From the NCBI GenBank assembly GCA_001769125.1, contig MEOG01000129.1:1-64000 (forward strand): DNA of 64,000 bases, written 5' to 3'. Made by a program: the position numbers and the translations under genes. Each line of letters begins with the position of its first letter. Position 1 is the first letter of the stretch. Positions 16,801 to 32,630 of this stretch are shown one piece after another. Under the pieces are notes generated by a model. The model was not told the DNA's origin and did not search any database. It was given only the letters and a program-made list of their open reading frames with translations. Source of the stretch: Bacteroidetes bacterium GWF2_35_48 (GTDB lineage: Bacteria; Bacteroidota; Bacteroidia; Bacteroidales; GWF2-35-48).

Positions 16801-19800
16801 AGTTCCACCAGATGCAAAAACAGTTGCTGAACCTGTTGTGTTACCATAACAAAGCACATTTGTTTGTGCGCTAATTGTTGAATTTAATGCTGCCGGTTGT
16901 GTAATTGTTACACTTGCTGTAGAATTACAAGAATTAGAATCGTAAACAGTAACAGAATATATCCCTGCAATAAGTCCGGTTGCTGTTGTTGTACTTTGCA
17001 CCGGTGTTGTATTCCATGAATAGGTTAAAGGAGCAGTACCTCCGGTAGCGGTCACTGTAGCTGAACCGGTATTCCCTCCATTACATAAAACATTTGCGCT
17101 AGTACTAATTGAAGCCGTTGGTCCTCCTGTATTGCTTATATTAATTGTTTGTGTATTTGTACAATTTTTAAAATCGGTAACAGTTACAGTGTATGAACCA
17201 GCAGCAAGTCCTGTAAGTGATGAAGCAGTAGCCCCGTTTGACCAAAGATAGGTATAGGGAGAAGTTCCACCTGATACCGCAACAGATGCAGTCCCATTTG
17301 ATAATCCACATGAAGCATTACCCGATGAAGGTGTTATTGAAATAGCAGTTGGTTGTCCTATGTCTACACTTGCAGTTTGCAGACAGGTAGGAGAAGCGGC
17401 ATCAGTAACAGTAACAGTATGTATTCCGAAACATAAACCAGATGCACTTGCAGTAGTTTGGCCATTATCCCATAAATACGTATAAGCCCCTGATCCACCT
17501 GTTGGAGCAACACTGGCAGTTCCGCTGCAAACGCCAAAACACAATGCATCTGTTCTAGATGTAACAAGATTTAATGCAGCAGGTTCTGTTATTGTTACAG
17601 ATTGTGTGGCAGTACAAGCATTCGAATTAGAAACAGTAACAGTGATCACTCCGTCGCAAAGACCTCCTGCTGTTTGACCTGTAGTTCCGTTTGACCAGGA
17701 ATAAGTAAAGCCAGATCCACCAGTAGGATTTGAAGTAGCCGAGCCATTACAAACTCCATTACAATTGGCATTTACAAATGTTACAGTAGGAACCGGAACC
17801 GCATAAACTGTTATAACCTGAGTTGTAGTAGATGAACATCCGCCTTGTGTTACAGTATGTGTAACAGTGTAGGTACCTGGTGTAGCCCATGTAACAGAGG
17901 GGTTTTCAGCAGTTGAACTGGAAGGAGTCCCGCTTGGAAAAGTCCATGAGTAAGTAACACCTACTCCTGTTGTTCCTGTATTTGTAAAATTAAATGCAAC
18001 ACCCACACATTGATTACCATTGTATGAAAATGTAGAGGCAGGGTTGGCAGTTGTTAGAACTTCAACAGTGTCTGAAATTGCACAGCCATTTGAACCCGTT
18101 GCAGAAATAATGTAAATTCCGGCAGCTAAACTTGTATATGTGTAATTGGCAGGTTTATTATTTGCATTAGGTTTTCCAGTGCAGGTATATGTAAAATTTG
18201 CCACACCATTTGCAACAGTAATTGCAATGGAGCCATTACTACTTCCGCAAGTCGCTGCAGTAGGAGTTAGTGTTAAAATCATAGCTGCCGGCTGTGTAAT
18301 AGTAATAGTCGCAACAGCATGACAACCCAGAGCATCTGTTACTGTACATGTATAAGTGCCTGCAATAAGTCCTGAAATAGTTGCAGTAGAGCCACCATTT
18401 GACCATGCATACGTATAAGGGGATGTACCACCTGAAGTTACAGAAACTGAAGCAATACCATTTGTTCCGCCATTACATGCAATATTTGTTTGAGATGGAG
18501 TAAGAACAATATTGTTAATATTAAAATTAAAGGTGGCAGGAGGTGCAACATTGCCACATATATCAGATACAGACCCGGCTGTATTTACTAGGCTAAGTGC
18601 AAAAGCCCCGCTTGTAGTGAGTGCTGGTGACACTGTAATTGTAAAAGTATTATCATAAGTAGCTCCTGATGCGCATTGGGTAGAAGATATTGAAGAAATA
18701 GCATAAGGTCCACCCGGTCCAGTAAGAGTAAAGTCGGCAGGTGTTGCTGTACTGCAATTTACATTTTCACTGAAATTAAATGTTAAAGAATTGGAACCAC
18801 ACGCAATCGGAAGAGCAACAGATTGAAACACGGGGCTAATATTATCAAATATAGTAGCAGTTGATGCAGTAAAATCAATAAAATAACCTGCTTGTGAAGG
18901 TGAGTATTGGCTAACATTTACAACGTAAGTCTGACCAGCAGAAACAGGTATAACGGGTTCATTCTGTCCCGCGCAATCAACTGTTTCTCCATTAGGTCCT
19001 GTTAATCCATCACATCCTATATTTGAAGAAAAATTACAACCGACTTCTAATGCAGCATTTGAATAAATATCAGAGCAATTTGCAGTTGACAGATTGTATA
19101 CAGCCCAATCGTAATCGTCAGTAGAGGTATTCGGGGTTATGGTAAAGTTTAAATTACCACTGTTCTGAACGGTAAAAACATACCAAACATCGTTTTTTTC
19201 ACCAGCGCCTAAACATGAATTTAGCGAATTTATTTCATTTGCAATATTTCCAGTACCGGAATATGCCAGATTCGTAGTAAAAGTACTTTGACAAATAGGA
19301 ATAGCTCCCATACAATCCTGATTATTTGGAGCGCCCGGATTTGTGATACATGTAGTAAACGTAGTATTGGTGGGATTTGTTGAATAATAATCATAAACCC
19401 TGTAATAATAAGTTAGCCCTGCAGTAAGACCCGAAATTGTTAATGTACCTGCGGTTCCTGATACAAAAGTAGCATCGTTACAAACTAGAGAAGTTAAAGA
19501 GGCACATGTACCAGAAAACACCTGAACTACCGGATCAAAGCCTGACGCAGGTGTTACTGTAATATTTTGAGACGAATTTCCGGCAACAAAGCTGTACCAG
19601 ACATCGTCATTAGCCGTTCCTACACATCCTGCAAGAGATTGGGTTGCTCCGGAAATATTGCCACTAATTGTAGTGCATGTAGCACCGGGTGTAACAGCTA
19701 AAGCCCCACTGCAATTATCATTTGGAGGTGCAACTGGTACAGGTGGATCCGTTACACAAATATCAAAATCACCTTGTGTTCCTCCTCCATATTCCCAAAA

Positions 19801-20223
19801 ACGAATATAAATTGTTGTACCCGGAGTCAGACCTGTTCTGTCAATCATTGGCATCATACCATTGGGGCTATCATCATCATCACATTCGATAAGGGTTAAT
19901 GAACCGCAGGAGCCAGAGTATATAGCCATTCCTCCATCAGTTATACCACCAGTCTGAGTATTTATCACTAGATGCCCTGAAGCAGGTACAGTAACTTTAA
20001 ACCATACATCTTCAAACACACTCCCCGCACAACCTGGCGCAGTTTCTGTTGAAACCGTAGCATCATCATTGTCATAGTTCGTATATGTACATGTAGCCCC
20101 GGGAGTGAGAGCAATTGCTCCTGCACAATCATCATTCAAAGGTGCTGGAGGTTGAGCTAATAAAGAAAAATTTGAAATAAAAAATATTGTAAAAATAATA
20201 GGAATAATAAATTTCGTAGCCAT
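4876..20223 (-). CDS. Giant SprB-repeat surface adhesin, T9SS type B (5115 aa)
   Basis: Predicted cell-surface adhesin of the SprB / gliding type, exported by Sec and T9SS. A signal peptide spans about residues 1-24. Residues 25-560 hold two NDDC...GAI domains of pre-peptidase-C character and a module beginning NQDCMGAIPIC that recurs in the neighbouring giant. An array of about 55 SprB units (my estimate from about 75 aa each) runs from about 590 to 4700, with cores such as GGTSPYTYLWSNG and YTVTVTD. It is interrupted by a PKD-like domain near 721-811 and an unrelated lamin-tail-like domain near 1257-1441. Two PKD domains (WNFNDP, WNFGDN) follow at about 4854-5018, then a type B sorting domain (APTAFDPNSP, IFDRWGQIVFET) to the end. 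The small secreted-protein gene lies 21 bases upstream, so they are probably one transcript. In SprB such proteins are moved along the cell surface by the gliding motor; adhesion here is inferred. No frameshift is seen across 15 kb. Confidence 0.93.
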   Translation of the reverse strand: MATKFIIPIIFTIFFISNFSLLAQPPAPLNDDCAGAIALTPGATCTYTNYDNDDATVSTETAPGCAGSVFEDVWFKVTVPASGHLVINTQTGGITDGGMAIYSGSCGSLTLIECDDDDSPNGMMPMIDRTGLTPGTTIYIRFWEYGGGTQGDFDICVTDPPVPVAPPNDNCSGALAVTPGATCTTISGNISGATQSLAGCVGTANDDVWYSFVAGNSSQNITVTPASGFDPVVQVFSGTCASLTSLVCNDATFVSGTAGTLTISGLTAGLTYYYRVYDYYSTNPTNTTFTTCITNPGAPNNQDCMGAIPICQSTFTTNLAYSGTGNIANEINSLNSCLGAGEKNDVWYVFTVQNSGNLNFTITPNTSTDDYDWAVYNLSTANCSDIYSNAALEVGCNFSSNIGCDGLTGPNGETVDCAGQNEPVIPVSAGQTYVVNVSQYSPSQAGYFIDFTASTATIFDNISPVFQSVALPIACGSNSLTFNFSENVNCSTATPADFTLTGPGGPYAISSISSTQCASGATYDNTFTITVSPALTTSGAFALSLVNTAGSVSDICGNVAPPATFNFNINNIVLTPSQTNIACNGGTNGIASVSVTSGGTSPYTYAWSNGGSTATISGLIAGTYTCTVTDALGCHAVATITITQPAAMILTLTPTAATCGSSNGSIAITVANGVANFTYTCTGKPNANNKPANYTYTSLAAGIYIISATGSNGCAISDTVEVLTTANPASTFSYNGNQCVGVAFNFTNTGTTGVGVTYSWTFPSGTPSSSTAENPSVTWATPGTYTVTHTVTQGGCSSTTTQVITVYAVPVPTVTFVNANCNGVCNGSATSNPTGGSGFTYSWSNGTTGQTAGGLCDGVITVTVSNSNACTATQSVTITEPAALNLVTSRTDALCFGVCSGTASVAPTGGSGAYTYLWDNGQTTASASGLCFGIHTVTVTDAASPTCLQTASVDIGQPTAISITPSSGNASCGLSNGTASVAVSGGTSPYTYLWSNGATASSLTGLAAGSYTVTVTDFKNCTNTQTINISNTGGPTASISTSANVLCNGGNTGSATVTATGGTAPLTYSWNTTPVQSTTTATGLIAGIYSVTVYDSNSCNSTASVTITQPAALNSTISAQTNVLCYGNTTGSATVFASGGTIPYTYLWNDPAPAQTTATASGLTAGTYNVTVTDLNNCTSVLPVTITQATELSANITLHTNVSCYGGNNGSATVVATGGTLPYSYNWTGGYTTATASGLIAGTYEVTVTDANGCTANTSIPPSCFQIQSILVDACAVSTNEGYQEMVFFQIGPTAMNTSDLSVTWPNNAWDGVCTDPDFVANVNATITGGGQLLEPTGGVLPAGAQVVIITSEAYSTSFNSFADLSSTLYVIFQCDSITTGHFANYGTGIRTLTMSFGACTDVVSYDRANLITQAGTLGSQDGASVYFNDAGTASYVNNGCVVPFVQTSVTITEPPPFTATIAGTDVLCNGGATGSANLTVTGGVSPYTYTWSNTATSEDISGLIAGTYTVTVKDANNCTITANVTIAQPAVLNATIAGTNVSCAGGTTGAANLTATGGTSPYTYLWSNTAVTEDLSGLIAGTYTVTVKDINNCTVTASITITQPTALTAVIAGTNVSCNGETTGAANLTVSGGTTPYSIAWSNSSSSEDLTNIGAGSYTVTVTDLNNCTANASVTISQPAALTATIGSPVNILCNGGNNGSATVSASGGALPYSYSWTGGQTTATASNLTVGNYSVTVTDLNGCTTVVNTVITEPAVLTATISASDVLCNAALTGAANLSVTGGISPYTYSWSNTATTEDLSNIAAGTYTVTVTDFNNCTTNSSILITQPDVLAVSITPVNATCGATNGSASAIVTGGVTAYSYAWSNSGTGSSISGLGSGSYTLTVTDANNCTVTGSAPISNAGAPTASIAPPVNVLCNGGNNGSATVTASGGTSPYTYLWSDGQTTTTASGLIAGVYTVTVTDVLTCSTNVNVTITEPTPLIATLSSQINIACNGATNGSATITVSGGVPSYTYLWNDPAPAQTSSSASALAAGIYTVTVTDGNLCVSTTSVTITEPAALTASATAVNATCNNLCNGSTDVITSGGTSPYAYLWSDLQTTQSAGNLCDGTYTVTVTDANLCTTTSSATVNEPIAMVLTPGSLNANCGTSTGVATISVSGGFPNFNYVWSDGSSTLNTPSTTNNISSIPSGTYTVTVTDVNGCSVTETVNVNDNAAPSATITLSTNVACFGGATGSATVTVVGGASPYDYYWSSGSTTIDNPLLTETVNNLTAQTLSVTVTDAGNCSVNTSVIITQPTVITSSISSQVNVSCNGGADGSASITASGGTPAYSYEWTGGQTNSSATNFSAGIYYVTITDLNNCTLEDTVTITEPAVINVNNTTQTNVSCFGGNNGSVTVIASGGVPNYTYTWSNGATGATASGLTAGIYTVTVSDANLCTQTFGVTITEPTALTGATLVTNETVFNACDGTATITGSDGTPLYSYVWSDLSAQTTQTANNLCVGNYTVTLSDANGCTYITTVTISGPDALILTPTGSAVNCNGDCDGTTTVAVSGGIAPYDYLWDATAGNQITQTATGLCAGIYSVTVTDQNGATGTTTATVTQPTAMSASIPVSVQPSCFGGTNGNATVSATGGTLPYSYVWGTTPSQTTASATNLSAGTYSVTITDALGCTTTASQILGEPTQIIINISGTDVLCNGNADGSADLTASGGTGILSFSWSNTASSEDISNLAAGNYIVTVTDANGCTQNENITINEPVVLTATIGNTSETVFGACDGTATVTPIGGTGIYSYLWDNPAPAQTTQAASNLCPGTYTVTVTDQNGCIFVIPTTVLGPDALVLTVTGSAVDCNGDCDGTASVSVTGGIPPYNFAWDVNAGSQTNDTAVGLCAGSYSVTVTDSNGAIASILSTVTEPTLLTSSIIDQDNTLCFGSADGSASAQASNGTLPYTYNWSNSTSGANATGLIAGTYDVTVIDGNGCISVSSVTITSPTQVIVSASGTDVACFNGTDGSVLATPSEGTPGYSFEWSNGSANSSVSNLPEGTYSVTVTDINNCTATTSVTISQPVLLDISILATTDPSGFGASDGSATAGATGGATPYTWSWSNGTTSDVATGLSSGTYTVTVTDANGCTATTSATIFEPGALQIQLISSTNISCNGVCDGTAEISVSGGVPGYTYLWGNGVVTPDVTGLCAGSNTVTVTDQNGYSATYSVNLTEPALLSATTLVISNVLCNGGTSGSAWVTATGGTTPYSYLWSNTATNDTITLLAAGGYSVVITDSHNCQYTSNVSISEPTTLVVTTTSIDANCNQAQGSISAVVTGGTAPYTYLWNISPQPGIQTVSNLVPGTYSTTVTDVNNCTSTATGIINNIPGVTLIIKGLTDALCNGSCDGIAIIESSGGGTPYTYTCSNGYTTTNASNTIDINGLCAGNYSATVTDGNSCQASVTFTINEPLPVIATILDSVHVSCDNGSDGSATVSGSGGTVPFTAIWNTIPSQTDVIATGLIAGNYSVTITDVNGCSDDISVVITQPSPIIVSTTFNNAHCGQADGSASVTATGGTISTGYSYLWSGGTMPLNLSTISGLSSALSPYTVTVTDNNNCTATANVSVGDIPPGTASISSFTNVSCNGAADGSATVSMGGGQSPYQYLWSTVPSQTTLTATNLAPGTYTVSVTDAFNCIVTASVSITEPAVLSNIFTVQNPLCYNACTGSIASLISGGTTPYQYIWSNVQTSSTISALCAESYSLTVTDANNCSAEFSSTLTQPSQIIITGTASDAACNNADGSVDITVTGGSPAYQFLWSNSSTNQNINAVAAGTYTIMVTDAEGCTASQAFNVNNISGPAITLTGQTNITCFGSNNGTASISVTGGTLMFTYQWNTTPAQYTASATNLEPGIHSVTVTDVNTNCNANLSVTITEPAALNAIQSVIEPLCNGDCNGSAAALVTGGTAPYNYQWFGGGSSVTSATNTDLCAGNYSLVVSDANACTGMYTVTVNQPTFVTAVTSSTSMTCNSVCDGTATVIPSGGTSPYSYSWQPGNQTTQTAVGLCSGTHSVTVSDAHGCDVLSTVNVTAPPPLLIFLIDLQHVKCFGQSSGRIIVSVSGGTPNHSYSWSNGATTQNLIGIPFGNYCLTVTDQNGCSKDTCFIVSQPPLLQVSLNHTDESCYGFCDGTATPNIQGGQQPYTYLWSNFTTNSTANNLCPGLYNLTVTDLNNCTASANTNIVGYDILSLLLVHVDTATCGQPNGAAQISVIGGSSNYDYSWPAGVSSNSPAASGLLAGSYTVTVTDDNNCTATLDININNADGPIINNIIPTNVSCYNAQNGSLLVNFTSSTTYNTITWNTTPVQNGATAVNLGPGMYSVVITDDHGCTSSQNASITQPQQLLSAVTNHTDVSCFGYCNGSATVLSSGGIDPHQYLWSNALTSYSVNGLCAGNYSVTTTDNNGCTSISTIVIDQPDSLEINSTINSVTCNGLQNGQIIVQASGGTGYFYNWFPNVSSNSVAANLAPGEYTLVLTDYYDLNCSVTETFTVTEPYPIFANTNSTPTTCGLNNGMAYIYGEITGGVHPFTISWSPGNYSGDTIYNAAAGTYQLQITDENNCSEVFPVPVSSVTPPVLDYVSTENASCPGFSDGTATIGVKFGTSPFTYTWTPFIGSDSVINALTANLNDLQAGIYNVTISDINGCNVQTTFIVDEPDPIHVFADGGQWICVGQSVTISANASGGQFPYLFSWNTLPSNNPVQYVNPTVTSTYQVFATDQNLCQSDTAEVTVNVYPLVTVQLFKDTSICKGMEATLYAIPSGGNGGPYNYYWYENGTSSGLSPNDEFTVSPLVTTEYMVEATDNCSPVSDKDSVVVTIIPIPNANIIASPVSGCEPLSVDFQNIDTTGNVTYLWNFNDPYSNNNITIDQNPSHTYTDNGVFTVSLTLTTPEGCTAIANRQINVFPVPNAEFHAFPEVVSLFHSTVEFTDISGDVSWWSWNFGDNHFSSLTNPEHSYQEAGIFQVQLIVKNSYGCKDSVTHDIEVREETTFYAPTAFDPNSPRNNKWKPTGVGIDESKYYVYIFDRWGQIVFETSDFNEAWDGRFFNSGTDYVKSGSYIWHVRFRDVNGKWIEKTGSVTVIR

Positions 20224-20244: not shown

Positions 20245-20838
20245 TTATTTAATTTCTTGTTGTTTTGAATGCCATTCTTTTTTTGCCTTCTCATATAAAA
20301 TAGCATCTTCTGTTTCATTTCCTGTTTTCTCATATTTTGGAAAATCAGCGGGAAGCTCAATAACTGCATCAGAAATTTTTCTTCCTGTCATGATTTCTAC
20401 TTCTTCAGGATAATTTTTTATCCATTCCTGCTTATCTTTTTCATACCTGTCATGATCAGCCTGAGGGTTTCCTGTATCTTTAAAAACAGGATAGTGTTCT
20501 GTTGCTATTTGTGATTTTATAATTGAAGAATCATTAAAATCAAATCCGTTTTGACGTAAAATTTCACGGACTTGGTCTGCAGACAAATGCTCTTTTATTT
20601 TAAGCTTAAAATATTTAATAGTACCGGAAATAACAAATTGGGCAGATAAAACATCTGGTTTTTGTTTAAATATATTTTCAAGAGATTCGACAGGAATCGT
20701 ATTGTTTTTTTCAATAACTTCAAAAGAAACTATTACGCCATCAGAAATAGTTTTTTTATATTGAAAATCGCAATTATATTTTTGCGCAAACGAGCATAAG
20801 CATAGCAAAGCCAGCCATCCAAATAATAAAAATTTCAT
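20245..20838 (-). CDS. Small secreted protein with repeated TGN...EW motif (197 aa)
   Basis: A signal peptide covers about residues 1-18 (hydrophobic, ending SFAQ). The body (20-110) is mixed alpha/beta and not recognised. Two copies of a short motif follow: FKDTGNPQADHDRYEKDKQE with WIKNYPE, and YEKTGNETEDAILYEKAKKE with W. The pattern is TGN-x(4)-D-x(3)-Y-x(2)-K-x-EW. The same motif occurs in the 215-aa protein upstream of the other giant adhesin, so the two are paralogues. It precedes the 5115-aa adhesin by 21 bases. A periplasmic or surface accessory role for its adhesin (chaperone, processing, anchoring) is inferred from this repeated pairing only. The start is the first Met before the signal peptide. 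Confidence 0.85.
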   Translation of the reverse strand: MKFLLFGWLALLCLCSFAQKYNCDFQYKKTISDGVIVSFEVIEKNNTIPVESLENIFKQKPDVLSAQFVISGTIKYFKLKIKEHLSADQVREILRQNGFDFNDSSIIKSQIATEHYPVFKDTGNPQADHDRYEKDKQEWIKNYPEEVEIMTGRKISDAVIELPADFPKYEKTGNETEDAILYEKAKKEWHSKQQEIK

Positions 20839-20969: not shown

Positions 20970-23900
20970 TTACCGGATAACTGTTACATATCCGTTCTTT
21001 TCATAAGCTTTATTGTATTTATCTTTTACCCATATATACCAAACATAGGTTCCGGATTTTACATACTCTCCTTTATTCATGAATTTACCACTCCAGCGTT
21101 CATTCCAGTCAATTGTTTCAAATATCAGCTCTCCCCATCTGTCAAAAATCCATAAATGATAATTCTTTTCATCAATACCTACACCCTGAGGATAAAATTC
21201 TCTGTTAATAGGAGAATTCGGATCAAAAGCTGTAGGAACGTATAAGGTAAATTCATCGCGTATTTCAACTTGTTTTGTTATCGAGTCAACACAATTATGA
21301 TCGGTGCGAACGGTTAACATTACATTGTAAATTCCTGCTTGCTCATACGTATGTTCCGGGTTTACCATTCCGGAATAACGGTTGTCGCCAAAATTCCAAA
21401 GCCTGTTTGAAATAATTCCGTCTGAAATATCATTAAATTCAATTGTAGAATGGAACAAACTTGCAAATTCAGGATATAGCGTGAAATTAGCAATTGGTTT
21501 CGGATACACAGTTATGATTTGGTCATCTGTAGCAGTACAGCCATCTCCGGTTTTTATTGTAAGGGTAACATTATAGTTTCCATCATGTGTAAAAAGATGA
21601 GAAGGGTTGGGGTCTAGCGAAGAATTATTATTTGAATAAACATCGTTGAAGTTCCACAAATACTGAAGATCTGTTGTTGTGGCAATATTTCTGAAGAAAA
21701 CTTCAAGAGGCTCACAACCCGCCATTTTATCTACAATTACAGCAACCTGAGGTACGGGCAAAACATAAATAGTAATACTGTCTGCAATAGATGGAGAACC
21801 ACAATTGTCCACTGCATAAACGATATAGGTAGTTGTATCCGGTGGAGAAACATCACGTATTGCAAATGGAACAGTATCTTGTAAGTCATACCAGTAAAAA
21901 TTATAGGGACCTCCGTTTCCTCCAGATGGTATTGCTTCTAAATGAGCCTGATCATTTTTACATATTCTTGTTGTATCTGCAATAAGGTTCACAATAACCG
22001 GAGGGTACACATAAATAGTAACTCCTGCTGTATCTGAAACACAAGCTCTGTTATCTGTTGCATAAACATTATAAGTTGTTGTACTTGTCGGATTCACTAT
22101 TTGAACTGCATTTGAAGAGGGAAGCCCAATCCAACTAAAAGAATAGGGTGGAGTTCCACCGCTTGCATTTGCAGTAATAGTTGTTGTTTGTCCTTCACAT
22201 ATCCAGCGTGAGCCATCAGCATGAATAATGATAGGAGAGGGCTCTGTTACAATTAAAGCAGTTTGAAGCAAACAACCATTGTCATCTGCAATGGTTACAT
22301 TGTAATTCCCTGCTGATAAACCATAAATGTCCATAGTGAAATTATCAACAATCGAATCATTTCCAATAAATGGATTCCAATCATAACTATATGGTTGAGA
22401 ACCGTCTTTTATAGTAATTAAAGCAGATCCATCATTCATTCCCGGGCAGGAAACATTTGATGTAACGATGCTGAAAATAATGGGAGGAGTGATTGCATTG
22501 ACAGCTACTGTTGAGTTAAACAGGCAGTTGTTTGCATCTGTTATCTGGAACTGATAGCTACCTGAAGCTGCATTGTAAACTGTATCATTAGTACTATTTC
22601 CCGGCGACCAAGTGAAATTGTAAGGCGCAGTTCCTCCAGTAACATTGGATGAAACAAAAGCAGTTCCATTATTTTGTCCGCAGCTTGTCGGTGTAGAGCC
22701 TAATGTAGTTTGGATTAGATTAGGTTCTGTGATTAAATAACTTGCGGTTTTTGTACAATTCTGATCGTAGTAATCAGTAATAAGAACGCTATAAGTACCC
22801 GGCGATAGTGGCGCTGCTACAGAATTCGAACTGACATTCGGTAACCAGTTGTAGAAATAACCTGTGCCGCCTGTTACAGAAAGTACGATTTGTCCGTTGT
22901 TAGATCCGTTACAAGTCGCGTTTTGGACATTTGCAGTAATGTGAATGGAGTCGGGTTGTGTTATAGTTGTACTGCTAATACTCGTGCATAGGTTTGCATC
23001 TGTAAGCGTAACGGAATAATTTCCTGCACATAAATTTGAAACAGTAGAAGTCGTTCCTCCTCCTGTCCAATTAAAGCTGTAAGGATTTGTTCCTCCATTG
23101 CCCATGACAGTTGCTGTTCCGTTACATGTACCATAACAGGATGTATTTGTATGATTCGTAATCGCAGATTGTAATTGTGTAGGCTGAATAATGGTGCGGC
23201 TTCCGGATGCAACACATCCATGACCATCTGTAATAACAACGGAATAAGTTCCCGGTCCGAGGTTGGTTACCATATCTTCATCTACTCCTGTTATAGGGGG
23301 TGAAGTATTCCATCCTAAAGAATAGCTTATAGTACTTCCATGGTAAAATACCTGTATAGAACCGTTTTGATAACCGTAACAAGTAATATGTTGTACTTGA
23401 AAACTATCTATAATCGGACCATCTGCATTGCTTATATTTATCTGTAAAGAATCACGGCATCCGTTTGCATCTATAACAGTAACAGTATAAGCACCTGCAG
23501 CAAGGTTGTTGGCTATAGATGAAATGCTGTTTATGCCTGTCGGCCATTGATAAGTAAAGCTATATGTTCCTCCTAAAGCTGATATAACGGCACTTCCATT
23601 TGCCTGCCCACAGGTTGCTGTGTCTGTATTCACGGTCATTATAGCAAGAATATCATGTCCTGTAACAGTCGCATTTGATGTCGCAATACAATTGTTAAAG
23701 TCAGTTATATTTATAGCGTAAGCTCCGGGGCATAGACTGTCTGCTGTTGCTTGCGTATCAAAATTAGACCAGAGGTAAGCGTAAGGTGGTTGACCGCCTT
23801 GTATATTGGAAGTTATATAGCCATCGCATAAGCCGTAACAGCTTTCTTCATGTGCTGTTGCGCTAACTTGTAATAAAGGAGGCTGGCTTATTATGAAACA

Positions 23901-26900
23901 AGTGTCTTTCGAACAACCGTTCAGATCTGTTACGGTTACACAATAATTTCCATAGGGAATATTAATTATATTTTGCGTTGTCGCTCCATTACTCCAGTTG
24001 TATGTATAACCAGGAGAGCCTCCTGTTACACTTAATGTGATGCGTCCTGTTGATTCCGAAAAACATTTTACATGTTGCAAATCCAATACCTGAACAACTA
24101 TTTTCGGAGGCGTTGTTACAATAGTACTTACTGAAGTAGAACAGTCATTGTTATCTGTAATTATGCACGAATAAGTATCAGGACAAAGAGCAATAGCCTG
24201 TTGAGTTGTCTGATTGTTTGTATTTGCGCTCCATTGGTAAGAATAGGGCGCGATTCCCCCGGATGCTGTAACATTTGTTGTTCCATTGCAAATTCCAAAA
24301 CAAGACAAGGGTGTAGCGGTTGCCACTACCGACAGAAACGCTGGCTGTGTTACATTTACAGTTTCCATTTTTGTACAGGAATTTGTATCTGTGATTATAA
24401 TCGTGTAAGAACCGGCACATAATCCTGTATTTGTAGCAGATGTTTGCGCGTTGCCTCCTCCAAACCATTGATACGTGTAAGGAGAAGTTCCTCCACTTGG
24501 TGTTACAGTTGCAGAGCCATCGCAGTCTCCATTACATAGAGGGGGGGTTATTTGTGTTGTGTTTGACAGTATTGAGGGTTCTGTAATTATTACAGTAGTA
24601 TTGGCTGTACAATTTGAAATAATATCTGTAACAATAACATTGTATGTTCCCGGATCAAGGTTTGACGCTGTAGCAGAATATTGAGCGGGGTTTGTACTCC
24701 ATACATAATTAAACTGGAGTGAGCCGCCATCTGCATAAACGGTTGCGTACCCGTTAGCCGCTCCATTACATAGAACATTTTGGGACTCAGAGATAGTAGC
24801 GGTTGGACCTGAAATATTGTTTATTTGGAAAGTGCTTGTCTGATTACAACCTGATGCATCAATTACTGCAAGCGTATAAGTTCCTGATGGAACATTTGAT
24901 AAAGACTGTGTATCTTCTCCTGAAGTCCAGTGAAACTGATAAGGAATTGTTCCTCCTGTTATTATAGTCGTAATGCTTCCATCGGATTGATTGCAGTTGG
25001 CGTTTTCAGCAGTTCCGGTAATTTCAATAGGTGCAGGTTCTGTTACTGTAGCAGTAAAAGTTGCAGTGCAGCTCAGATTATCTATTGCTGTCAAAGTGTA
25101 TTCTCCATCACATAAATTAGAAATAGTTGCTGTTGATTGCAGATTGCTCCACTGATAAATATAGGGCGAAGTTCCACCCATAACAGAGGAAGTAATTTGT
25201 CCGTCGCATTGTCCATTACAGCTGGCATTTGTTACTGTAAACATATTTGATAACTGAGCCGGTTGTGTAATTGTTACAGTTGCTGTAGCAATGCATGAAT
25301 TAGCATCCGTAACATTAACCGTATATACACCGGGATCGAGATTCGTTGCTGTAACTGTAGTTTGAGGAGGTGTTGTACTCCATGAATACGTAAACGGAGC
25401 GAGACCTCCACCCATAGAAACCGTTGCTGACCCATTCGATTGTCCGTAGCATGTAACATTTGAAAATGCAGAGATGCTTGCGGTTCCTCCGGGTAAATCT
25501 CCTATTGTAACACTTGTCGTTGCCGTGCAGCTATTATTGTCTGTAACAATAACACTATAAGTTCCTGCTGCTAATCCAGTACAGTTAGCTTGAGTAGGTA
25601 TAGTTCCACCGCTCCATAAATAAGTATAGCCCGTTGTAATAGTTCCACCTATTGCTGAAACATTTGCAGAACCATCTGCCTGACTGCAATGTGCGTCTGT
25701 TTTTGTCGTAGATAATGTTATTGCAGTTGGTTCAGAAATTAAAACAGAAGCATTCGCCGTACAGCCATTCCCATCTGTAATTGTAACATTATAGGTTCCG
25801 GCAACTAATCCTGTTGCTGTTAAAGTATTTTGAGCAGGGATGGTATTCCAATCGGCAGTAAAGGTTTCTGTTCCTCCTGTGCCTGTAACTGTTGCAGCGC
25901 CCGTACTCCCTCCATTACAATTTACATTTGTGCTAGCTGAAATACTTGCAGTAACGGCATCAGGTTGAGATATGGTAAAGGTTTCAACACTTTGACAACT
26001 GTTGGCATCTGTTACCGTCAGCGTGAATGTACCTGCGCACAAATTGGGAATAGTAAAATTTATTGAAGAGGTTGAGGCTGTATATCCGTTAGAAACAACT
26101 ATACTGTAACCGGGCAATCCACCTACAATTTCAAGAGAGGCAGTTCCATCACAATCTCCGTTACAGGTAGGTTGCGTTGATGATTTTACCGAAACAAGAA
26201 CACCCGGAATATCACTGATAGTGCCGTTTGCAGTTGTTGAGCACAAATTTGCATCGGTTACAATAACTGTATAAGCTGCCGGAGGTAGATTCGATGCTAT
26301 CTGTGTTGTTTGTGTAGGTGTTGAATTCCATGCATAAGTATACGGACCTGTTCCTCCAGATGGATTTGCCTGTATGCTTCCAGTTGCCTGTCCACAATTG
26401 GCTCCTATAGGACTTGTTGTTGCAGAAAGAGCCGTGGGTTGAATAATGGTAACCGTTGCTGTCGCCGTGCAGCCATTGTTATCTGTAGCTGTAAAAGTAT
26501 GTGTTCCCGATGGTAATCCTGAAATGCTTAATTGGTTCGTGGGAGCAGTTCCCGCACTCCATAAATACGTAATAGGTGTTGCAGCTCCGCTTGCAGTAGC
26601 TGTGGCAGAACCTGTGCTGCCTCCGAAACATGATACATCAGCGCTGGTAACGATTGAAGCAGTCGGACCGTCATCACTGCTAACATTTGCTGAACCTGTT
26701 ACACTACACCCATGTGAGTCCGTTACAGTAACGGGATAGGCATTTGTTGCTAATCCTGTTGCTGTTTGTGTGGTTTGCGCCGGAGATGTTCCCCAGTTGT
26801 ATGTATAAGCAGGGAAACCGTTTGTGGCAGTAACCGTGGCTTCTCCGTTATTATTACCGCAGGTTGTATTAACGGTAGTAAAAATTAATGTGATTAGATC

Positions 26901-29900
26901 GGGTTGCGATATACTTACATTAGCAGTTTGGAAACAAGCCGGAGTGCTTGCATCAGTTACTGTAACTGTAAAAGTACCTACACAAAGATTTCCAGTATTG
27001 TTTGCAGTAGGCGTATTTCCTCCGCTCCAACTATATGTATAGCTGCCAGAGCCGCCTGATGCTGTAACGCTTGCTGTCCCATCACACAAGCCATAGCAAG
27101 TTACATCGGTGCGCGTTGTTACTAATGTTAGAGGAAGAGGTTCCGTAATAGTTACTGTTTGTATCCCTGCGCAGTTGTCTGTGTTGGTAACGGTTACAGT
27201 GTACGACCCTGCAGCTAAACCTGTAATAGCCTGACTGGTTGCTCCGGTTGACCAAAGGTATGAAAAAGTAGAACCTCCGGTTGGATTAGATGTTGCAATA
27301 CCCGTGCTTCCTCCCGCACAATTTGCATTTGTTGTCAGAACATTTGGAACAGGATTTGGCAGAACCGCAATATTCATGGTAGATGTAGATGTACAGCTTC
27401 CTTGTGTTACAGTATGAGTAATTGTGTATGTTCCTGATGTTGTCCACGTAATGCCTATTGGGTTTTCTGCAGTAGAACTTGTTGGCGTACCGCTTGGGAA
27501 AGTCCATGAGTGGGTAATTCCAACTCCTGTACTACCGGTATTGGTAAAGTTATATTGATTTGCAACCTCTGTTCCTGCACAATGATTACCATTGTATGTA
27601 AAAGTACTTGTAACACTTCCTGTGTTGATTATTGTTGTAGTACCCGAAGCAGTACAGCCATGTCCATCTGTAACATTAACGGTATAACTACTTGGTGCAA
27701 GCCCTGTAAAAGTATAACTACTGTTTGCATTATTATTTGACGCAACTGCAGGAGGGCATGTGTAATTATAATTAGCATAACCATTGGAAACGCTTACAGC
27801 TATTTGTCCGTTACTTGCACCGCATGTAGCTTCAGCAGGGGTAAGTGCTAACGTTATTTGAAGAGGTTGTGTGATTGTGAAAGAATTTATTACAGAACAA
27901 CCAGTACTATTTGTGGTTGTTACGGAATAAGTTCCGGGAACGGCTGTTAATCCTGAAATACTGGATGTTGTTGTAGCGGTAGGACCAGTAGTTGTTCCAT
28001 TTGACCAATTGTAAGTATAGGGAGAACCCGACCCTGATGTAATCGTTACAGATGCAATTCCATTATTCCCGTTATAACAGGAAACATTTGTTTGCGTCTG
28101 GCTTGTAACCAATCCGGTTATAGTAAAAGGTAAACTTCCATCAGTTGCAACATTACCGCATAAGTCTTGTACATAACCACAACCAGCAACAAGATTAACA
28201 TTGTAATTTCCAGTCGTTGTCATAGCCGGAGTTACATTTAGTGTAAATTGTACTTCCTGAGTACCACCTGCAGCACATGCAGTTCCTGTTACACCAGTAA
28301 CAGTATAAGGTCCACCAGGTCCGGTAATGGTAAAATCACAAGCTTGAACAGAGCTACATAAAACTTGCTCAGTGAAACGAATTGTCACAGATGTTGCTCC
28401 ACAGGATGGGGTTGTTGTTAATATATCAAGGGCAGGGGGAATGTTATCAAAAATCACAGCGGTTGATGCAGAAAAATCAAGACTATAGCCAGATTGACTT
28501 GAAGAAAAATTACTGACATTAACAACGTAGGTTTCACCCGCTACTACCGGAATTACAGGTTCATTCTGGGCATCGCAATTAACAGTTTCACCATTGGGAC
28601 CAGTTAAACCACCGCATCCAATATTAGATGAATAATTGCAACTTACATCCAACGATGCATCCAAAGGTATTTGCGCACAGGTAGCATTGGTCAAATTAAA
28701 AACTGCCCAGTCATAATCATCTGTTGTTGAATTTGGCGTAATAGTAAAATTCACATTGCCCGATTGCTGTACTGTAAATATGTACCATGAGTCATTTTTT
28801 TCACCTGAACCTAGACAAGTATTTCCAGTAGGAATTTCTCCTGAAACATTTCCGGTACCAACAAATGAAGATTCCTGACAAAAATAATTCTGACATACAG
28901 GTATAGCTCCGTTACAATCCTGATTAACAACAGAACCGGGATTCGGATTGCAAGATGCAGCACCAGCACAAGTCATTTCCAAACAAGAAACAGTAGCTGT
29001 ACCAGAAAATTGAAGCGGAACATTCGTTAATGCTGAACTATAATTGGAAAAACAAATAATGTATTGCTCTCCGCATAACACTGGAAGCGGAGGTTCAAAA
29101 TTAGCATTGGTTGTATATGATGGAGACAAGCCTGTCCCACCACTAGAGGTAGCATTCCAGTTACAACGAACAGGAGCAACAACATTATTTGGAATTGCAG
29201 AACAGGAAGAAGAATTATAGGGATACATTATCCAATCGTAATAACCGGCTTGTGAAGACCCACCAAAATTAAATTCAAGAAGCCCATCTGAACCTATATT
29301 GACAATCATCCAAGTACTATTTTTTTCACCTACTTGTAAACAACCAGAATGACCACTTCCTCCCGGATTATTATTCAGAGGATTTCCTAAAGAACCGCTG
29401 GCTGGAATCTCGTTTGTTGCACCTATCCCATTTGCATCTACCTGAAATCCTAAATTAGTACAAACATTTATTGCATCTGCACAATCACCTGCTGTTGCAA
29501 CAGAAGTACCACCGGACGCTGACCATTGAAGAGTCATGCAATCTGTATTTGAAGTACAATTATATTCACTCACAAGAACAGTTACAACTCCAGTAAAAGT
29601 TGCAGTCCACGTTATCGTTGATTGTGTTCCACATCCGTCGTCATTATAAGCGAGAGAAGTGCCACCACAACCTGTCCCTTGAATTAACGATAACTGTGTA
29701 TCAAAGTCAGTATCCCCGCAAGTTTCCCATGTGTAGGTAGTACCACTGGTAACATTGCATACAACGTAATCACTTCCATACATACAGGTAGAAATGGTTG
29801 TCATTGTTGTAGAAGTGGTAGATTGTGTTGTTGAAGGATATTGCGAACCGCAATTAGTACATTGCGAAAATGTTTTTTTTGTAATAAAAAAAACAATAAA

Positions 29901-29933
29901 AGTAAAGAGGCAGAGTATATATACTTTTTTCAT
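20970..29933 (-). CDS. Giant SprB-repeat surface adhesin, T9SS type B (2987 aa)
   Basis: Paralogue of the downstream 5115-aa protein with the same plan but a shorter array. Signal peptide about 1-23; Cys-rich N-terminal domains; a NQDCNGAIPVC module near 340-500 that closely matches the one in the larger protein, including STTDDYDWAVFN and NSTWMIV-type stretches; an Ig-like VIFDNIPPALDIL region. The SprB array runs about 618-2564, roughly 26 units by length, with a PKD-like interruption near 771-854. Two PKD domains (WNFNDV, WNFGDN) lie near 2721-2888 and the type B sorting domain (VPTAFDPNSP, IFDRWGELIFET, ending VTVIR) near 2894-2987. The 215-aa secreted-protein gene lies only 12 bases upstream. 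The lamin-tail-like insert of the larger paralogue is absent here. Surface exposure by T9SS is well supported; ligand unknown. Confidence 0.93.
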   Translation of the reverse strand: MKKVYILCLFTFIVFFITKKTFSQCTNCGSQYPSTTQSTTSTTMTTISTCMYGSDYVVCNVTSGTTYTWETCGDTDFDTQLSLIQGTGCGGTSLAYNDDGCGTQSTITWTATFTGVVTVLVSEYNCTSNTDCMTLQWSASGGTSVATAGDCADAINVCTNLGFQVDANGIGATNEIPASGSLGNPLNNNPGGSGHSGCLQVGEKNSTWMIVNIGSDGLLEFNFGGSSQAGYYDWIMYPYNSSSCSAIPNNVVAPVRCNWNATSSGGTGLSPSYTTNANFEPPLPVLCGEQYIICFSNYSSALTNVPLQFSGTATVSCLEMTCAGAASCNPNPGSVVNQDCNGAIPVCQNYFCQESSFVGTGNVSGEIPTGNTCLGSGEKNDSWYIFTVQQSGNVNFTITPNSTTDDYDWAVFNLTNATCAQIPLDASLDVSCNYSSNIGCGGLTGPNGETVNCDAQNEPVIPVVAGETYVVNVSNFSSSQSGYSLDFSASTAVIFDNIPPALDILTTTPSCGATSVTIRFTEQVLCSSVQACDFTITGPGGPYTVTGVTGTACAAGGTQEVQFTLNVTPAMTTTGNYNVNLVAGCGYVQDLCGNVATDGSLPFTITGLVTSQTQTNVSCYNGNNGIASVTITSGSGSPYTYNWSNGTTTGPTATTTSSISGLTAVPGTYSVTTTNSTGCSVINSFTITQPLQITLALTPAEATCGASNGQIAVSVSNGYANYNYTCPPAVASNNNANSSYTFTGLAPSSYTVNVTDGHGCTASGTTTIINTGSVTSTFTYNGNHCAGTEVANQYNFTNTGSTGVGITHSWTFPSGTPTSSTAENPIGITWTTSGTYTITHTVTQGSCTSTSTMNIAVLPNPVPNVLTTNANCAGGSTGIATSNPTGGSTFSYLWSTGATSQAITGLAAGSYTVTVTNTDNCAGIQTVTITEPLPLTLVTTRTDVTCYGLCDGTASVTASGGSGSYTYSWSGGNTPTANNTGNLCVGTFTVTVTDASTPACFQTANVSISQPDLITLIFTTVNTTCGNNNGEATVTATNGFPAYTYNWGTSPAQTTQTATGLATNAYPVTVTDSHGCSVTGSANVSSDDGPTASIVTSADVSCFGGSTGSATATASGAATPITYLWSAGTAPTNQLSISGLPSGTHTFTATDNNGCTATATVTIIQPTALSATTSPIGANCGQATGSIQANPSGGTGPYTYAWNSTPTQTTQIASNLPPAAYTVIVTDANLCSTTANGTISDIPGVLVSVKSSTQPTCNGDCDGTASLEIVGGLPGYSIVVSNGYTASTSSINFTIPNLCAGTFTLTVTDANSCQSVETFTISQPDAVTASISASTNVNCNGGSTGAATVTGTGGTETFTADWNTIPAQNTLTATGLVAGTYNVTITDGNGCTANASVLISEPTAITLSTTKTDAHCSQADGSANVSAIGGTITTGYTYLWSGGTIPTQANCTGLAAGTYSVIVTDNNSCTATTSVTIGDLPGGTASISAFSNVTCYGQSNGSATVSMGGGLAPFTYSWSTTPPQTTVTATNLDPGVYTVNVTDANSCIATATVTITQPAQLSNMFTVTNASCNGQCDGQITSSVMGGTSPYIYQWSNLQSTATISNLCDGEYTLTAIDNLSCTATFTATVTEPAPIEITGTAENANCNQSDGSITTIITGGTIPYQFHWTSGEDTQSLSNVPSGTYTLAVIDASGCNQTSTFQINNISGPTATISESQNVLCNGAANGYATVYADGGSLQFNYVWSTNPAQYSATASNLDPGTYNVIVTDIISNCTANTTVIITEPSILSNTTQITPPLCNGDCDGSATVTPSGGTSPYTYQWFGGGNAQTSATNTGLCAGSYTIIITDTNSCTKMETVNVTQPAFLSVVATATPLSCFGICNGTTNVTASGGIAPYSYQWSANTNNQTTQQAIALCPDTYSCIITDNNDCSTSVSTIVTTPPKIVVQVLDLQHVKCFSESTGRITLSVTGGSPGYTYNWSNGATTQNIINIPYGNYCVTVTDLNGCSKDTCFIISQPPLLQVSATAHEESCYGLCDGYITSNIQGGQPPYAYLWSNFDTQATADSLCPGAYAINITDFNNCIATSNATVTGHDILAIMTVNTDTATCGQANGSAVISALGGTYSFTYQWPTGINSISSIANNLAAGAYTVTVIDANGCRDSLQINISNADGPIIDSFQVQHITCYGYQNGSIQVFYHGSTISYSLGWNTSPPITGVDEDMVTNLGPGTYSVVITDGHGCVASGSRTIIQPTQLQSAITNHTNTSCYGTCNGTATVMGNGGTNPYSFNWTGGGTTSTVSNLCAGNYSVTLTDANLCTSISSTTITQPDSIHITANVQNATCNGSNNGQIVLSVTGGTGYFYNWLPNVSSNSVAAPLSPGTYSVLITDYYDQNCTKTASYLITEPNLIQTTLGSTPTSCGQNNGTAFVSSNVTGGTAPYNFTWSPGNSTNDTVYNAASGSYQFQITDANNCLFNSTVAVNAITPPIIFSIVTSNVSCPGMNDGSALITIKDGSQPYSYDWNPFIGNDSIVDNFTMDIYGLSAGNYNVTIADDNGCLLQTALIVTEPSPIIIHADGSRWICEGQTTTITANASGGTPPYSFSWIGLPSSNAVQIVNPTSTTTYNVYATDNRACVSDTAGVTIYVYPPVIVNLIADTTRICKNDQAHLEAIPSGGNGGPYNFYWYDLQDTVPFAIRDVSPPDTTTYIVYAVDNCGSPSIADSITIYVLPVPQVAVIVDKMAGCEPLEVFFRNIATTTDLQYLWNFNDVYSNNNSSLDPNPSHLFTHDGNYNVTLTIKTGDGCTATDDQIITVYPKPIANFTLYPEFASLFHSTIEFNDISDGIISNRLWNFGDNRYSGMVNPEHTYEQAGIYNVMLTVRTDHNCVDSITKQVEIRDEFTLYVPTAFDPNSPINREFYPQGVGIDEKNYHLWIFDRWGELIFETIDWNERWSGKFMNKGEYVKSGTYVWYIWVKDKYNKAYEKNGYVTVIR

Positions 29934-29945
29934 TCCTGAATATTT

Positions 29946-30593
29946 TTATTTATTAAAATTTTCTCTTTTTATCCTTTCCTGTTTTTCTTCATCTGTTTCA
30001 TTTTTTTTTGAACTCGAAGAAATAGCCTTGTATTTTTCTGGATTATTTTTAATCCATTCGTCTTTTCTTTTTTTATAGTCTTTGTTATCATATTCAGAAT
30101 TTCCTGTATCAATAAATTGAGGAAAGTCAGCAGGCCATGCATTTAAAATCCTATTTTGTTCTTCTCTGTCCGCTTCAATTTTAGCTCGTTCATCTGCTGA
30201 TACAACAGGCATTTGAATCATCAGGTTTACTTTTTCTGAATACTCAGAAATTTTATAACCAGCATTGCCGGTTAAATAAACAACATTTGTTTTATCTATT
30301 GACAGCTTGGATTCAATATTGCAGATTTTAGATACTGCATTATACTCTACGTTAAAGAAATTGTTATTGCCTTTAAATAATTGCAAGAAGCTTTTTATTT
30401 GTTGGTCAGAATTTAAAAAATCTACTCTAAAATTGATTGTTTTATAGCTTTCCGATTCTTTAAAAGTAAGCTGATTGTCTTCTCTGAATACATTATTTTG
30501 TGCAAACAGAGAAACACAAATAAAAAAAAGAACTGTGACTAAAGTAACTTTTTTTGCTTTAATACGCATTAAATAATAATATTTCATATTCAT
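29946..30593 (-). CDS. Small secreted protein with TGN...EW motif (215 aa)
   Basis: A basic N-terminus and a hydrophobic stretch ending in SLFAQ form a signal peptide (about residues 1-32). A start at Met9 (MRIKAKK) would give a more usual signal length, so the true start is uncertain. The body is not recognised. Near residue 150 the segment FPQFIDTGNSEYDNKDYKKR is followed by KDEWIKNNPEKY, matching the motif repeated in the 197-aa paralogue. The C-terminal 30 residues are highly charged and Lys/Glu-rich. It lies 12 bases before the 2987-aa adhesin gene, almost certainly in one transcript, and repeats the small-then-giant order found downstream. A strong terminator separates it from the preceding gene. 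Confidence 0.85.
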   Translation of the reverse strand: MNMKYYYLMRIKAKKVTLVTVLFFICVSLFAQNNVFREDNQLTFKESESYKTINFRVDFLNSDQQIKSFLQLFKGNNNFFNVEYNAVSKICNIESKLSIDKTNVVYLTGNAGYKISEYSEKVNLMIQMPVVSADERAKIEADREEQNRILNAWPADFPQFIDTGNSEYDNKDYKKRKDEWIKNNPEKYKAISSSSKKNETDEEKQERIKRENFNK

Positions 30594-30699: not shown

Positions 30700-32010
30700 T
30701 TACTTTATCAAAGTTACATTACCGGTTTTTCTTTCGGTGTTCCCATACTTATCTTTAAAAAGAACCTGATAAGCATAAACACCAGGATCAGCTATTTTAT
30801 CAGAACCCTTGATTTTTCCATCCCATTTCTGGTAGGGGTCTTTAGATTCAAAAATTAACTGCCCGAGTCTATTGTATATTGTAATATGATATTCGTATTC
30901 ACTTAAATTTTCTGCTTCCGGTCCCCAGTTGTCGTTAATTCCATCTCCATCCGGATTAAAAGCGTTAGCATAAAAAATATGTGAAAATACATTTATTAAA
31001 ATTTCTTTTTTAGCAATATCTGTACAGTTGAAAATGTTAACAACATATAAGGATATCGTGTATTTTCCATTAAGATTAAATGTTTTAACAGGGTTTTCTT
31101 CGGCTGTTTCTTCTCCATTTCCAAACATCCATTTTACTTTTGTAAAGTTAATAGATTTGTTATTAAAAGTGCAGGTATTTGCTCTTAAATCCATTGAGAA
31201 ATCTGATTTTGGAGCAGGCTTAACATTGATTGCTTGATTTAATGTATACGTAGCAACAACTTTGGATTTTTTAAACTTAACTGTAAGGCTCGGCGTATAT
31301 GTGCCTTCCTGATCAAAGGAATGGTTGGGTTTCATTAAGGAATTTGTTTCTCCATCGCCGAAATTCCAAATATATTCTATTGTGTCGCATTTCATGAAAG
31401 GAATGAAGGTTACTTTCAGTGGCGCGCACCCATCAATTGCATCTACTGTAAATTGCGCATTGGGCTGAATGCTCATTCCTGTGCAACTATTTGCAGGTTT
31501 GTTTTGGTTATTCGTTACAATTGCCGTTTCATTTTTGTTTGAAATATTATTTTCTGTTTTAATAATTTGATTTTTTTCTTCTGTAATTACCGGAGTAAGG
31601 GTAGTCTTCGATTCATTATTTATTGTAGAAGAAGTATTATTTTCAGAAATATTCTGATGTGTTTTATGCTGTGAATCATTTCCTGTTTTTACAAAAACCG
31701 TAATGTTTGAATTCGGCTCAGATGCCTTTATTTCTTGAGGATTTACAACAATTTCCTGTTTCGTTTCGGGTTGCTCATTTTTATTTTCAGAAGCATTATA
31801 AAAATAAACAGCGCTGATAATACCAACAGCTGTGATTCCAAGTATAGCAGCAATTTTCAGAATGCTTCCTGCGCTTCCTGAAAAACCGATTTTTGCCTTA
31901 GGCAGTTTCTTCTCAAAATTCAGCCATTCGCTATGATTGTATTCCATCTCATAGCCATTAAGCTTATCTTTGATAAGTTCCCCGAATGATATGTTGTTAT
32001 TTTTTTCCAT
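30700..32010 (-). CDS. Anti-sigma-like transmembrane protein with PKD domains and T9SS type B tail (436 aa)
   Basis: Residues 1-45 are cytoplasmic in character and contain the spacing typical of Bacteroidota anti-sigma N-termini (a short helix, then EWLNFEKKL). One hydrophobic helix follows at about 48-70 (ILKIAAILGITAVGIISAVYF). A low-complexity Asn/Thr/Glu/Lys linker spans 72-180. Two PKD-like domains follow (WNFGDGE near 218, WMFGNGE near 295) and then a type B sorting domain (ANAFNPDGDGINDNW, IYNRLGQLIFES, ending VTLIK). The start overlaps the ECF sigma stop by 14 bases, the usual sigma/anti-sigma arrangement. The mix is odd: T9SS tails normally need a cleaved signal peptide, while this N-terminus looks retained in the inner membrane. 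Either it is a trans-envelope receptor that binds the sigma factor, or the helix acts as an uncleaved or late-cleaved export signal. The anti-sigma role is inferred. Confidence 0.8.
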   Translation of the reverse strand: MEKNNNISFGELIKDKLNGYEMEYNHSEWLNFEKKLPKAKIGFSGSAGSILKIAAILGITAVGIISAVYFYNASENKNEQPETKQEIVVNPQEIKASEPNSNITVFVKTGNDSQHKTHQNISENNTSSTINNESKTTLTPVITEEKNQIIKTENNISNKNETAIVTNNQNKPANSCTGMSIQPNAQFTVDAIDGCAPLKVTFIPFMKCDTIEYIWNFGDGETNSLMKPNHSFDQEGTYTPSLTVKFKKSKVVATYTLNQAINVKPAPKSDFSMDLRANTCTFNNKSINFTKVKWMFGNGEETAEENPVKTFNLNGKYTISLYVVNIFNCTDIAKKEILINVFSHIFYANAFNPDGDGINDNWGPEAENLSEYEYHITIYNRLGQLIFESKDPYQKWDGKIKGSDKIADPGVYAYQVLFKDKYGNTERKTGNVTLIK

Positions 32011-32581
32011 GAATGTAATTTCTGAATAAATCCCTCAGCCTCATTTTGGCTTTGGCAAGGTTCGACTTGGAAGATCCTATACTGATATGAAGGGTTTCGG
32101 CGATTTCTTTGTGTGGCATGTTATCTATAACATACATGTTAAATACAGCGCGATATGCAGGCGTTAGTTTTTGCACAAGGCTTAAAACCACATCTGCCTG
32201 AATGCTCATATACTGCATTAATTCTTCTTCTTCATCATCTTCTTCTTTTGAGTCTGAAAGATTCACGAGATTTGCTTCTTCTTGATAAACAAACATGGCT
32301 TCCTTTTTTTTGCGAACCATATCTATCGAATTATTAACAATAATGCGCCTTACCCAACCTTCCAAAGAACCTTCGTTTTTAAAACTTTTAAGCCTGTCAA
32401 AAACTTTTATGAACCCATCCTGTAAGAAATCCTGAGCTTCTTCCCTGCCTGCAGCATAACGCATGCAAACAACCATCATTTTGCCGTAAAAAGCCTTGTA
32501 AAAATCATGTTGGCTTTTTCGGTCTCCCCTGATGCATCCGCTAATCAGCTTCTCAACTTCCTCCCTGTTTGCAAGATTCAT
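31997..32581 (-). CDS. ECF RNA polymerase sigma factor
   Basis: A 194-aa sigma-70 family factor of ECF type. Region 2 spans about 10-90 with YAAGREEAQDFLQDGFIKVF (RNA polymerase and -10 binding) and WVRRIIVNNSIDMVRKKK; an acidic linker (KEEDDEEEEL) follows; region 4 spans about 127-190 with LTPAYRAVFNMYVIDNMPHKEIAETL and the recognition helix IGSSKSNLAKAKMRLR. Only these two sigma domains are present, as expected. It directs RNA polymerase to a dedicated promoter set. A GGCAACC-N15-CGTC element just upstream suggests autoregulation. The next gene overlaps it and encodes a putative membrane-bound anti-sigma. Target genes are unknown; the adjacent adhesin modules lack an obvious copy of the same promoter. 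Confidence 0.95.
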   Translation of the reverse strand: MNLANREEVEKLISGCIRGDRKSQHDFYKAFYGKMMVVCMRYAAGREEAQDFLQDGFIKVFDRLKSFKNEGSLEGWVRRIIVNNSIDMVRKKKEAMFVYQEEANLVNLSDSKEEDDEEEELMQYMSIQADVVLSLVQKLTPAYRAVFNMYVIDNMPHKEIAETLHISIGSSKSNLAKAKMRLRDLFRNYIHGKK

Positions 32582-32601
32582 AATTGGTTTGACTTCATGT
32601 T

Positions 32602-32630
32602 AAAGACGAAAGATTCTTTTTTGGGTTGCC
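32602..32630 (-). promoter_or_regulatory. ECF-type promoter candidate upstream of the sigma gene
   Basis: On the minus strand GGCAACC (32624-32630), 15 bases and CGTCTTT (32602-32608) reproduce the general ECF promoter form, with AAC in the -35 element and CGTC in the -10 element. It ends 20 bases before the sigma ATG. No TAnnTTTG box with a TTTG partner is seen there. This suggests the factor drives its own operon. Confidence 0.5.

Follow-up and report, generated by a model that had tools for sequence, protein, structure and literature searches.

A predicted anti-sigma factor of the membrane that ends in a T9SS type B sorting domain, encoded behind an ECF sigma factor in Bacteroidales

What might a protein do that begins like the partner of an ECF sigma factor and ends like cargo of the T9SS? 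The question is raised by two overlapping genes in the window, a stretch of 64,000 nucleotides of Bacteroidetes bacterium GWF2_35_48 (contig MEOG01000129.1, positions 1 to 64,000), whose features are collected in Table 1. The first-pass annotation had read here an ECF sigma gene overlapped over 14 bp by the gene of a partner with EWLNFEKKL in its N-terminus, one membrane helix near residues 48-70, a linker of about 100 residues, two PKD domains, and a full type B tail. All these parts were recovered: sigma-70 regions 2 and 4 scored above cut-off, the shared 14 bp lie at 31997-32010, EWLNFEKKL occupies residues 28-36, a single hydrophobic helix covers residues ~48-72, the linker (~72-178) is rich in N, T, E, S, and K, PKD_4 matched in two stretches, and the tail exceeded the cut-offs of both PF13585 (51 bits, cut-off 27) and TIGR04131 (43.5 bits, cut-off 35). 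General ECF sigmas were the sole matches of the sigma in a PDB sequence search, and its score against TIGR02985 was 89 bits, under the cut-off of 126, which bears on an assignment to ECF21, the group expected next to a Dma gene. AlphaFold placed helices in the partner at residues 9-16, 26-35, and 48-75, left ~76-200 without structure, and folded the CHU_C part at pLDDT ~70-84; confidence in the model as a whole is low (mean pLDDT 44, from a thin alignment of seven rows), and no part beyond the helices and the CHU_C fold can be relied on. A long imperfect hairpin (AGCGGTGGC...GCCACCGCT) at 32690-32763, between a phosphomannomutase gene and the sigma promoter, is probably a terminator or repeat element.

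Table 1. Features of the sigma locus and its gene run in the window
Feature	Positions	Strand	Basis
ECF-type promoter GGCAACC-N15-CGTC, just before sigma ATG	32605..32630	-	motif conserved before CHU_C-type sigma genes
ECF sigma factor, 194 aa	31997..32581	-	Sigma70_r2/r4_2 above Pfam cut-offs; orthologues in 34/393 Bacteroidales genomes, E<=1e-43
Sigma partner, 436 aa, predicted anti-sigma in the membrane, T9SS type B tail	30700..32010	-	ORF, domain and N-terminal profile matches
Residues 1-47, cytoplasmic anti-sigma-like domain (..IKDKLNGYE..SEWLNFEKKL), two short helices	31870..32010	-	hhalign match to barrel-type partners
Residues 48-72, single inner-membrane helix	31795..31869	-	hydropathy; helix 48-75 in low-confidence model
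Residues ~73-178, low-complexity tether (N/T/E/S/K rich), ~105 residues	31477..31794	-	composition; pLDDT 21-32
Residues ~185-340, two PKD domains	30990..31456	-	PKD_4, two stretches, 73 bits
Residues 347-433, CHU_C / T9SS type B sorting domain	30712..30972	-	PF13585, TIGR04131
Small protein, 215 aa, secreted; lies in the operon between the anti-sigma and adhesin genes	29946..30593	-	likewise placed in other loci
Giant SprB-repeat adhesin, 2987 aa, PKD + CHU_C tail, same gene run	20970..29933	-	Pfam
Second small secreted protein, '..FP.F.TGN..' motif shared with first	20245..20838	-	sequence
Second giant adhesin, 5115 aa, tail resembling that of the anti-sigma	4876..20223	-	E 9e-32 to anti-sigma residues 122-436

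Residues 1-47 of the window protein had no match in Pfam or NCBIfam, including none to the ASDI domain, which is found near just 6% of Bacteroidetes ECFs (PMC7406223). We searched for the sigma in 60 relatives, 393 Bacteroidales, and 395 Bacteroidota genomes and read the next gene in the fetched loci. Nearly all next genes open with a short domain ('..f.ekL..yE.pp...W..ie..L') followed by one helix, with the W conserved in 69 of 71 partners, and their C-termini fall into a beta-barrel class, a PKD plus CHU_C class, and others, comprising short tails and tandem N-terminal domains. The profile of barrel-type N-termini matched several CHU_C-type N-termini (L027 at E 3e-8, L061 at 2e-7), and its match to the window protein alone was weak (E 0.15, against 0.07 for the best shuffled sequence). 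Profile against profile, hhalign joined the CHU_C-type and barrel-type N-termini at E 2e-7 (probability 89.7%), and intermediates exist between the two. By these profile comparisons, the N-terminus of the window partner is homologous to that of barrel-bearing ECF partners of the Dma architecture. What the first-pass annotation had called anti-sigma-like holds as homology to the N-termini of barrel-type sigma partners. In the scanned proteins the domain (window 31870-32010 and homologues) was matched by neither a Pfam nor an NCBIfam model, although it stands behind the majority of the Bacteroidota ECF genes in our sample.

The Dma proteins supply the closest published layout, with an N-terminal anti-sigma domain, a helix, a disordered tether, and a barrel (PMC13088901). 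Compared by described layout, Dma1 and Dma2 of Bacteroides thetaiotaomicron, which work with Das sigmas, share with the window protein the anti-sigma domain, the one helix, the long disordered tether, and a gene directly behind an ECF sigma; deletion of dma2 gave the behavior of an anti-sigma mutant, with the adjacent sigma activated (PMC13088901). Likewise, the M0N98_03760/03761 pair of Phocaeicola vulgatus agrees with the window pair in position and described layout, and genetics gave it anti-sigma function and induction by envelope stress: transposon mutants and deletions of the barrel-type homologue behave as anti-sigma mutants, its loss activating the adjacent sigma (PMC9308784). Because the N-terminus is shared with Dma-layout proteins whose loss has this effect, the anti-sigma role predicted for the window protein is well founded, and it probably works like Dma. 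The difference lies at the other end, where Dma1, Dma2, and the P. vulgatus protein carry a barrel, the last of these without a T9SS tail, whereas a barrel profile found no match in the C-terminus of the window protein, which has two PKD domains and the type B tail instead. We do not call the protein a Dma, because the defining barrel was looked for and is absent; PKD plus CHU_C in place of the outer-membrane beta-barrel is a new C-terminus. In searches of the open literature, neither an anti-sigma ending in a T9SS tail nor a regulon of this kind came up, in agreement with the first-pass annotation, which knew of no described protein with all these parts, although Dma proteins as published already have the first three of them.

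The search proposed at first reading, for other ECF-overlapping genes with a C-terminal CHU_C domain, has its counterpart in the next genes that were read. Among the 34 of 393 Bacteroidales genomes with sigma orthologues, all partners that were fetched and fully readable end in CHU_C, apart from L065, for which no partner turned up, and L014, in which the frame is split into two halves, the second keeping a CHU_C end. The same order of parts recurs behind the sigma in the readable relatives more often than chance would allow. The helix starts at residue 40-59 in all CHU_C-type partners, and from its end onward the proteins of the CHU_C clade (26 members) keep a length of 354 +/- 9 residues, over a tether of unconserved sequence. 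SprA was present in 369 of the 393 genomes, leaving a co-occurrence test with the T9SS uninformative. One clade of the sigma tree (support 99/88) held 36 of the 37 sigmas with CHU_C partners, and L027, with a CHU_C partner, was placed among the barrel types. Well-supported branches force at least three changes of C-terminal type, with L027 and L117/L120 as the cases outside the main clade, and by this tree the CHU_C tail has been gained or swapped repeatedly on sigma partners of this kind. The genome of the window itself holds a second sigma/anti-sigma pair (L117:2481-4307, contig C123) of a different sigma lineage, with a PKD plus CHU_C partner of 608 aa and a promoter of the form GGCAACG..TTGTC; L120 is its orthologue. 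Further, a scan of genome contigs with the sigma as query returned ten loci, several with a degenerate CHU_C, and because the domain is degenerate in Flavobacteriales relatives, secretion competence is not conserved everywhere. Six of the latter (L043, L044, L045, L050, L074, and L075) keep a decayed CHU_C-like end, with no Pfam match for L043 and L044; such an end may once have been a sorting tail and now serve as a sensor.

A shared motif, [AG]GCAAC-N17-GTC, mostly as RGCAACY-N15-CGTC, precedes the start codon by about 30-50 nt in 21 of 24 CHU_C-type sigma genes, and one further CHU_C-type locus has the promoter with a 16-nt spacer. The motif was absent from the scanned barrel-type loci, and the Flavobacteriales relatives retain GGCAACC with CGTT or CGTC. 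An ECF promoter under autoregulation would be expected to look like this. Of the 19 CHU_C-type loci that extend far enough, 11 have a giant adhesin no more than 3 genes downstream of the sigma (L123 being counted on length alone), versus 0 of 10 barrel-type loci (p 0.003), and as in the window it usually stands behind a small secreted protein. The small proteins before giant adhesins (window 29946-30593 and 20245-20838; L088 and L124) share '..FP.F..TGN...D....K..W', and the two of the window belong to no Pfam family above cut-off. At L248:229-1455 (G147), a second anti-sigma-like CHU_C protein lies directly behind RGCAACY-N15-CGTC and is followed by a small secreted protein and an adhesin of >3300 aa.

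A PWM trained only on other genomes was then applied upstream of the CHU_C genes in the genome of the window, where sites of at least 17.9 bits preceded 9 of the 15 adhesins with the closest tails versus 0 of 23 other CHU_C genes (best 9.7 bits; p 3e-5); 2 of the 6 closest-tail adhesins without a site are second genes behind another adhesin. Since a plain count of sites in the genome of the window shows no excess over a reversed control (7 versus 7; 15 versus 19), we relied on positional tests. Among unselected sites, 10 of 15 lay within 110 nt of and directly before an ORF with a signal peptide, versus 0 of 19 reversed-pattern sites (p 2e-5). Although T9SS-tailed genes are common in this genome (at least 150 matches in the type A search), a count of 10 out of 12 usable sites before such genes would give p ~5e-9 under an assumed base rate of 10%. 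Across genomes, eight bearing the sigma had 57 strict sites versus 7 in the reversed control, and eight bearing the T9SS without a close sigma had 7 versus 26 (p 3e-11 for the contrast; 4e-10 excluding the sites of the sigma genes themselves). Three further sigma-positive genomes showed an excess of sites, and sigma-positive G086 showed none (3 versus 3). The sites of G147 and G168 precede type A-tailed secreted proteins (L242, L243, L246, L244, L245, L250, and L252, with TIGR04183 well above cut-off) and also type B-tailed proteins (L247, L249, and L251), often with a small secreted protein first; one target in the genome of the window (L236) is a protease of the M43 family that combines PKD repeats with a tail of type A. 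None of the sites examined had T9SS machine genes behind it. These data support a predicted regulon of T9SS cargo, and the control of adhesin genes suggested earlier gains backing from the conserved promoter before the sigma gene, the giant adhesins, and the other cargo. Specific mimicry of the adhesin tails by the anti-sigma tail was considered as well and rejected, the regulon including type A cargo and the tail signatures differing.

The reading that we favor, at a probability of roughly 0.6, is that of an autoregulated ECF sigma with a Dma-related membrane anti-sigma bearing a T9SS tail, which would drive T9SS cargo and be switched by the contact of the tail with the T9SS or the outer membrane. 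The sigma would read RGCAACY-N15-CGTC promoters and so express giant PKD/SprB adhesins and type A-tailed secreted proteins. Its anti-sigma would be threaded into the inner membrane with the long tether crossing the periplasm, so that the CHU_C tail could meet the translocon of the T9SS, a PorP-like anchor, or some different partner in the outer membrane. Depending on the state of this contact (secretion capacity, a jam, surface contact, or envelope damage), the anti-sigma would be destroyed or rearranged and the sigma released, or not. Architecture, N-terminal homology, co-inheritance, promoter, and regulon were computed here, and from our side we infer sigma binding, tail topology, the signal, and the sign of the response.

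A different sensor is the strongest competitor, and we regard it as unlikely, though it deserves to be weighed: the protein would still be a membrane anti-sigma, its PKD-CHU_C end serving as a folded Ig-like sensor of the periplasm or outer membrane, comparable with the Dma barrel and never handled by the T9SS. Partners with barrels, short tails, or duplicated domains hold the same position behind related sigmas, the decayed Flavobacteriales end has been kept below Pfam detection, and an inner-membrane anchor precludes release in the manner of normal cargo, all of which this alternative would explain. Against it, within Bacteroidales the tail of the window protein lies above the curated type B cut-offs, CHU_C tails have been acquired more than once on such proteins, and the regulon consists of cargo of the T9SS. 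Less probable again is a cleaved partner, with the ectodomain shed and exported by the T9SS as a surface protein and a membrane stub regulating the sigma, so that secretion of the tail would be a FlgM-like switch; the intact type B tail, the long unstructured tether, and a regulon made of cargo of the same machine would suit it, but the tether sequence is unconserved. That the protein is an ordinary secreted adhesin whose overlap with the sigma gene is fortuitous can practically be set aside, for although PKD plus CHU_C is the usual end of a T9SS adhesin, a conserved domain of 40-59 residues common to non-adhesin sigma partners precedes the helix in the CHU_C-type relatives, and the sigma/partner pair is conserved across the order and beyond. 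For the same reason the helix, which the first-pass annotation had allowed might be a cleaved signal peptide, is not typical of one: by hydropathy and conservation it stands behind a charged, conserved domain of 47 residues and lacks the form of the cleavable signal peptide of type B cargo.

With the sensor and cleavage alternatives ranked below it, a membrane anti-sigma contacting the T9SS or outer membrane through its tail plausibly couples the expression of cargo to the state of secretion or of the surface. Because the apparent targets of the sigma are cargo of the machine to which the tail belongs, the cell may tune cargo production to secretion. Flagellar export offers a parallel in FlgM and sigma28, where the anti-sigma is linked to the very system that secretes the late cargo under sigma28 control. 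A FlgM-like logic is suggested here, because an inner-membrane regulator of T9SS cargo bears a T9SS sorting domain; FlgM is small, soluble, and part of another secretion system, and we claim no homology with the window protein. The boldest form of the idea, in which the anti-sigma spans the envelope and engages the translocon or surface anchors by its sorting tail, so that the working state of the machine directly sets cargo transcription as a T9SS counterpart of FlgM, is tentative, somewhat short of an even chance in our estimate.

Two T9SS systems offer further comparison. In Porphyromonas gingivalis, the T9SS-tailed PorA feeds, through PorXY, the ECF sigma SigP, which controls T9SS genes (PMC7712824); PorA differs in being a separate surface protein acting via a two-component system, and SigP controls components of the machine, none of which lay behind the sites examined here. 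Type B cargo binds PorP-like barrels, and the SprB-SprF and PG1035-PorP systems share with the window protein the type B tail and the PorP-like barrel as a possible anchor (PMC9143113); their cargo differs in having signal peptides and neither an anti-sigma domain nor an inner-membrane anchor. By analogy, one may speculate that the CHU_C tail and a PorP-like barrel together would form a two-piece Dma. The regulon of Dma2 itself comprises vesiculation and polysaccharide utilization loci (PMC13088901), as distinct from the predicted T9SS cargo of the window sigma. Most ECF sigmas of Bacteroidota are without a recognized anti-sigma (PMC7406223), and details of the PorXY-SigP pathway regulating T9SS expression in P. 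gingivalis are still termed unknown (PMC7712824). The pair described here adds a definite family of partners and, defined by its promoter, a predicted regulon of T9SS cargo that includes adhesins and secreted proteases; should the tail indeed sense the T9SS, secretion and transcription would be directly coupled in Bacteroidota.

Among the other partners, L046, L049, L076-L081, and L118 carry at least two tandem copies of the N-terminal anti-sigma-like motif, and L046 has several copies without a helix near its N-terminus.
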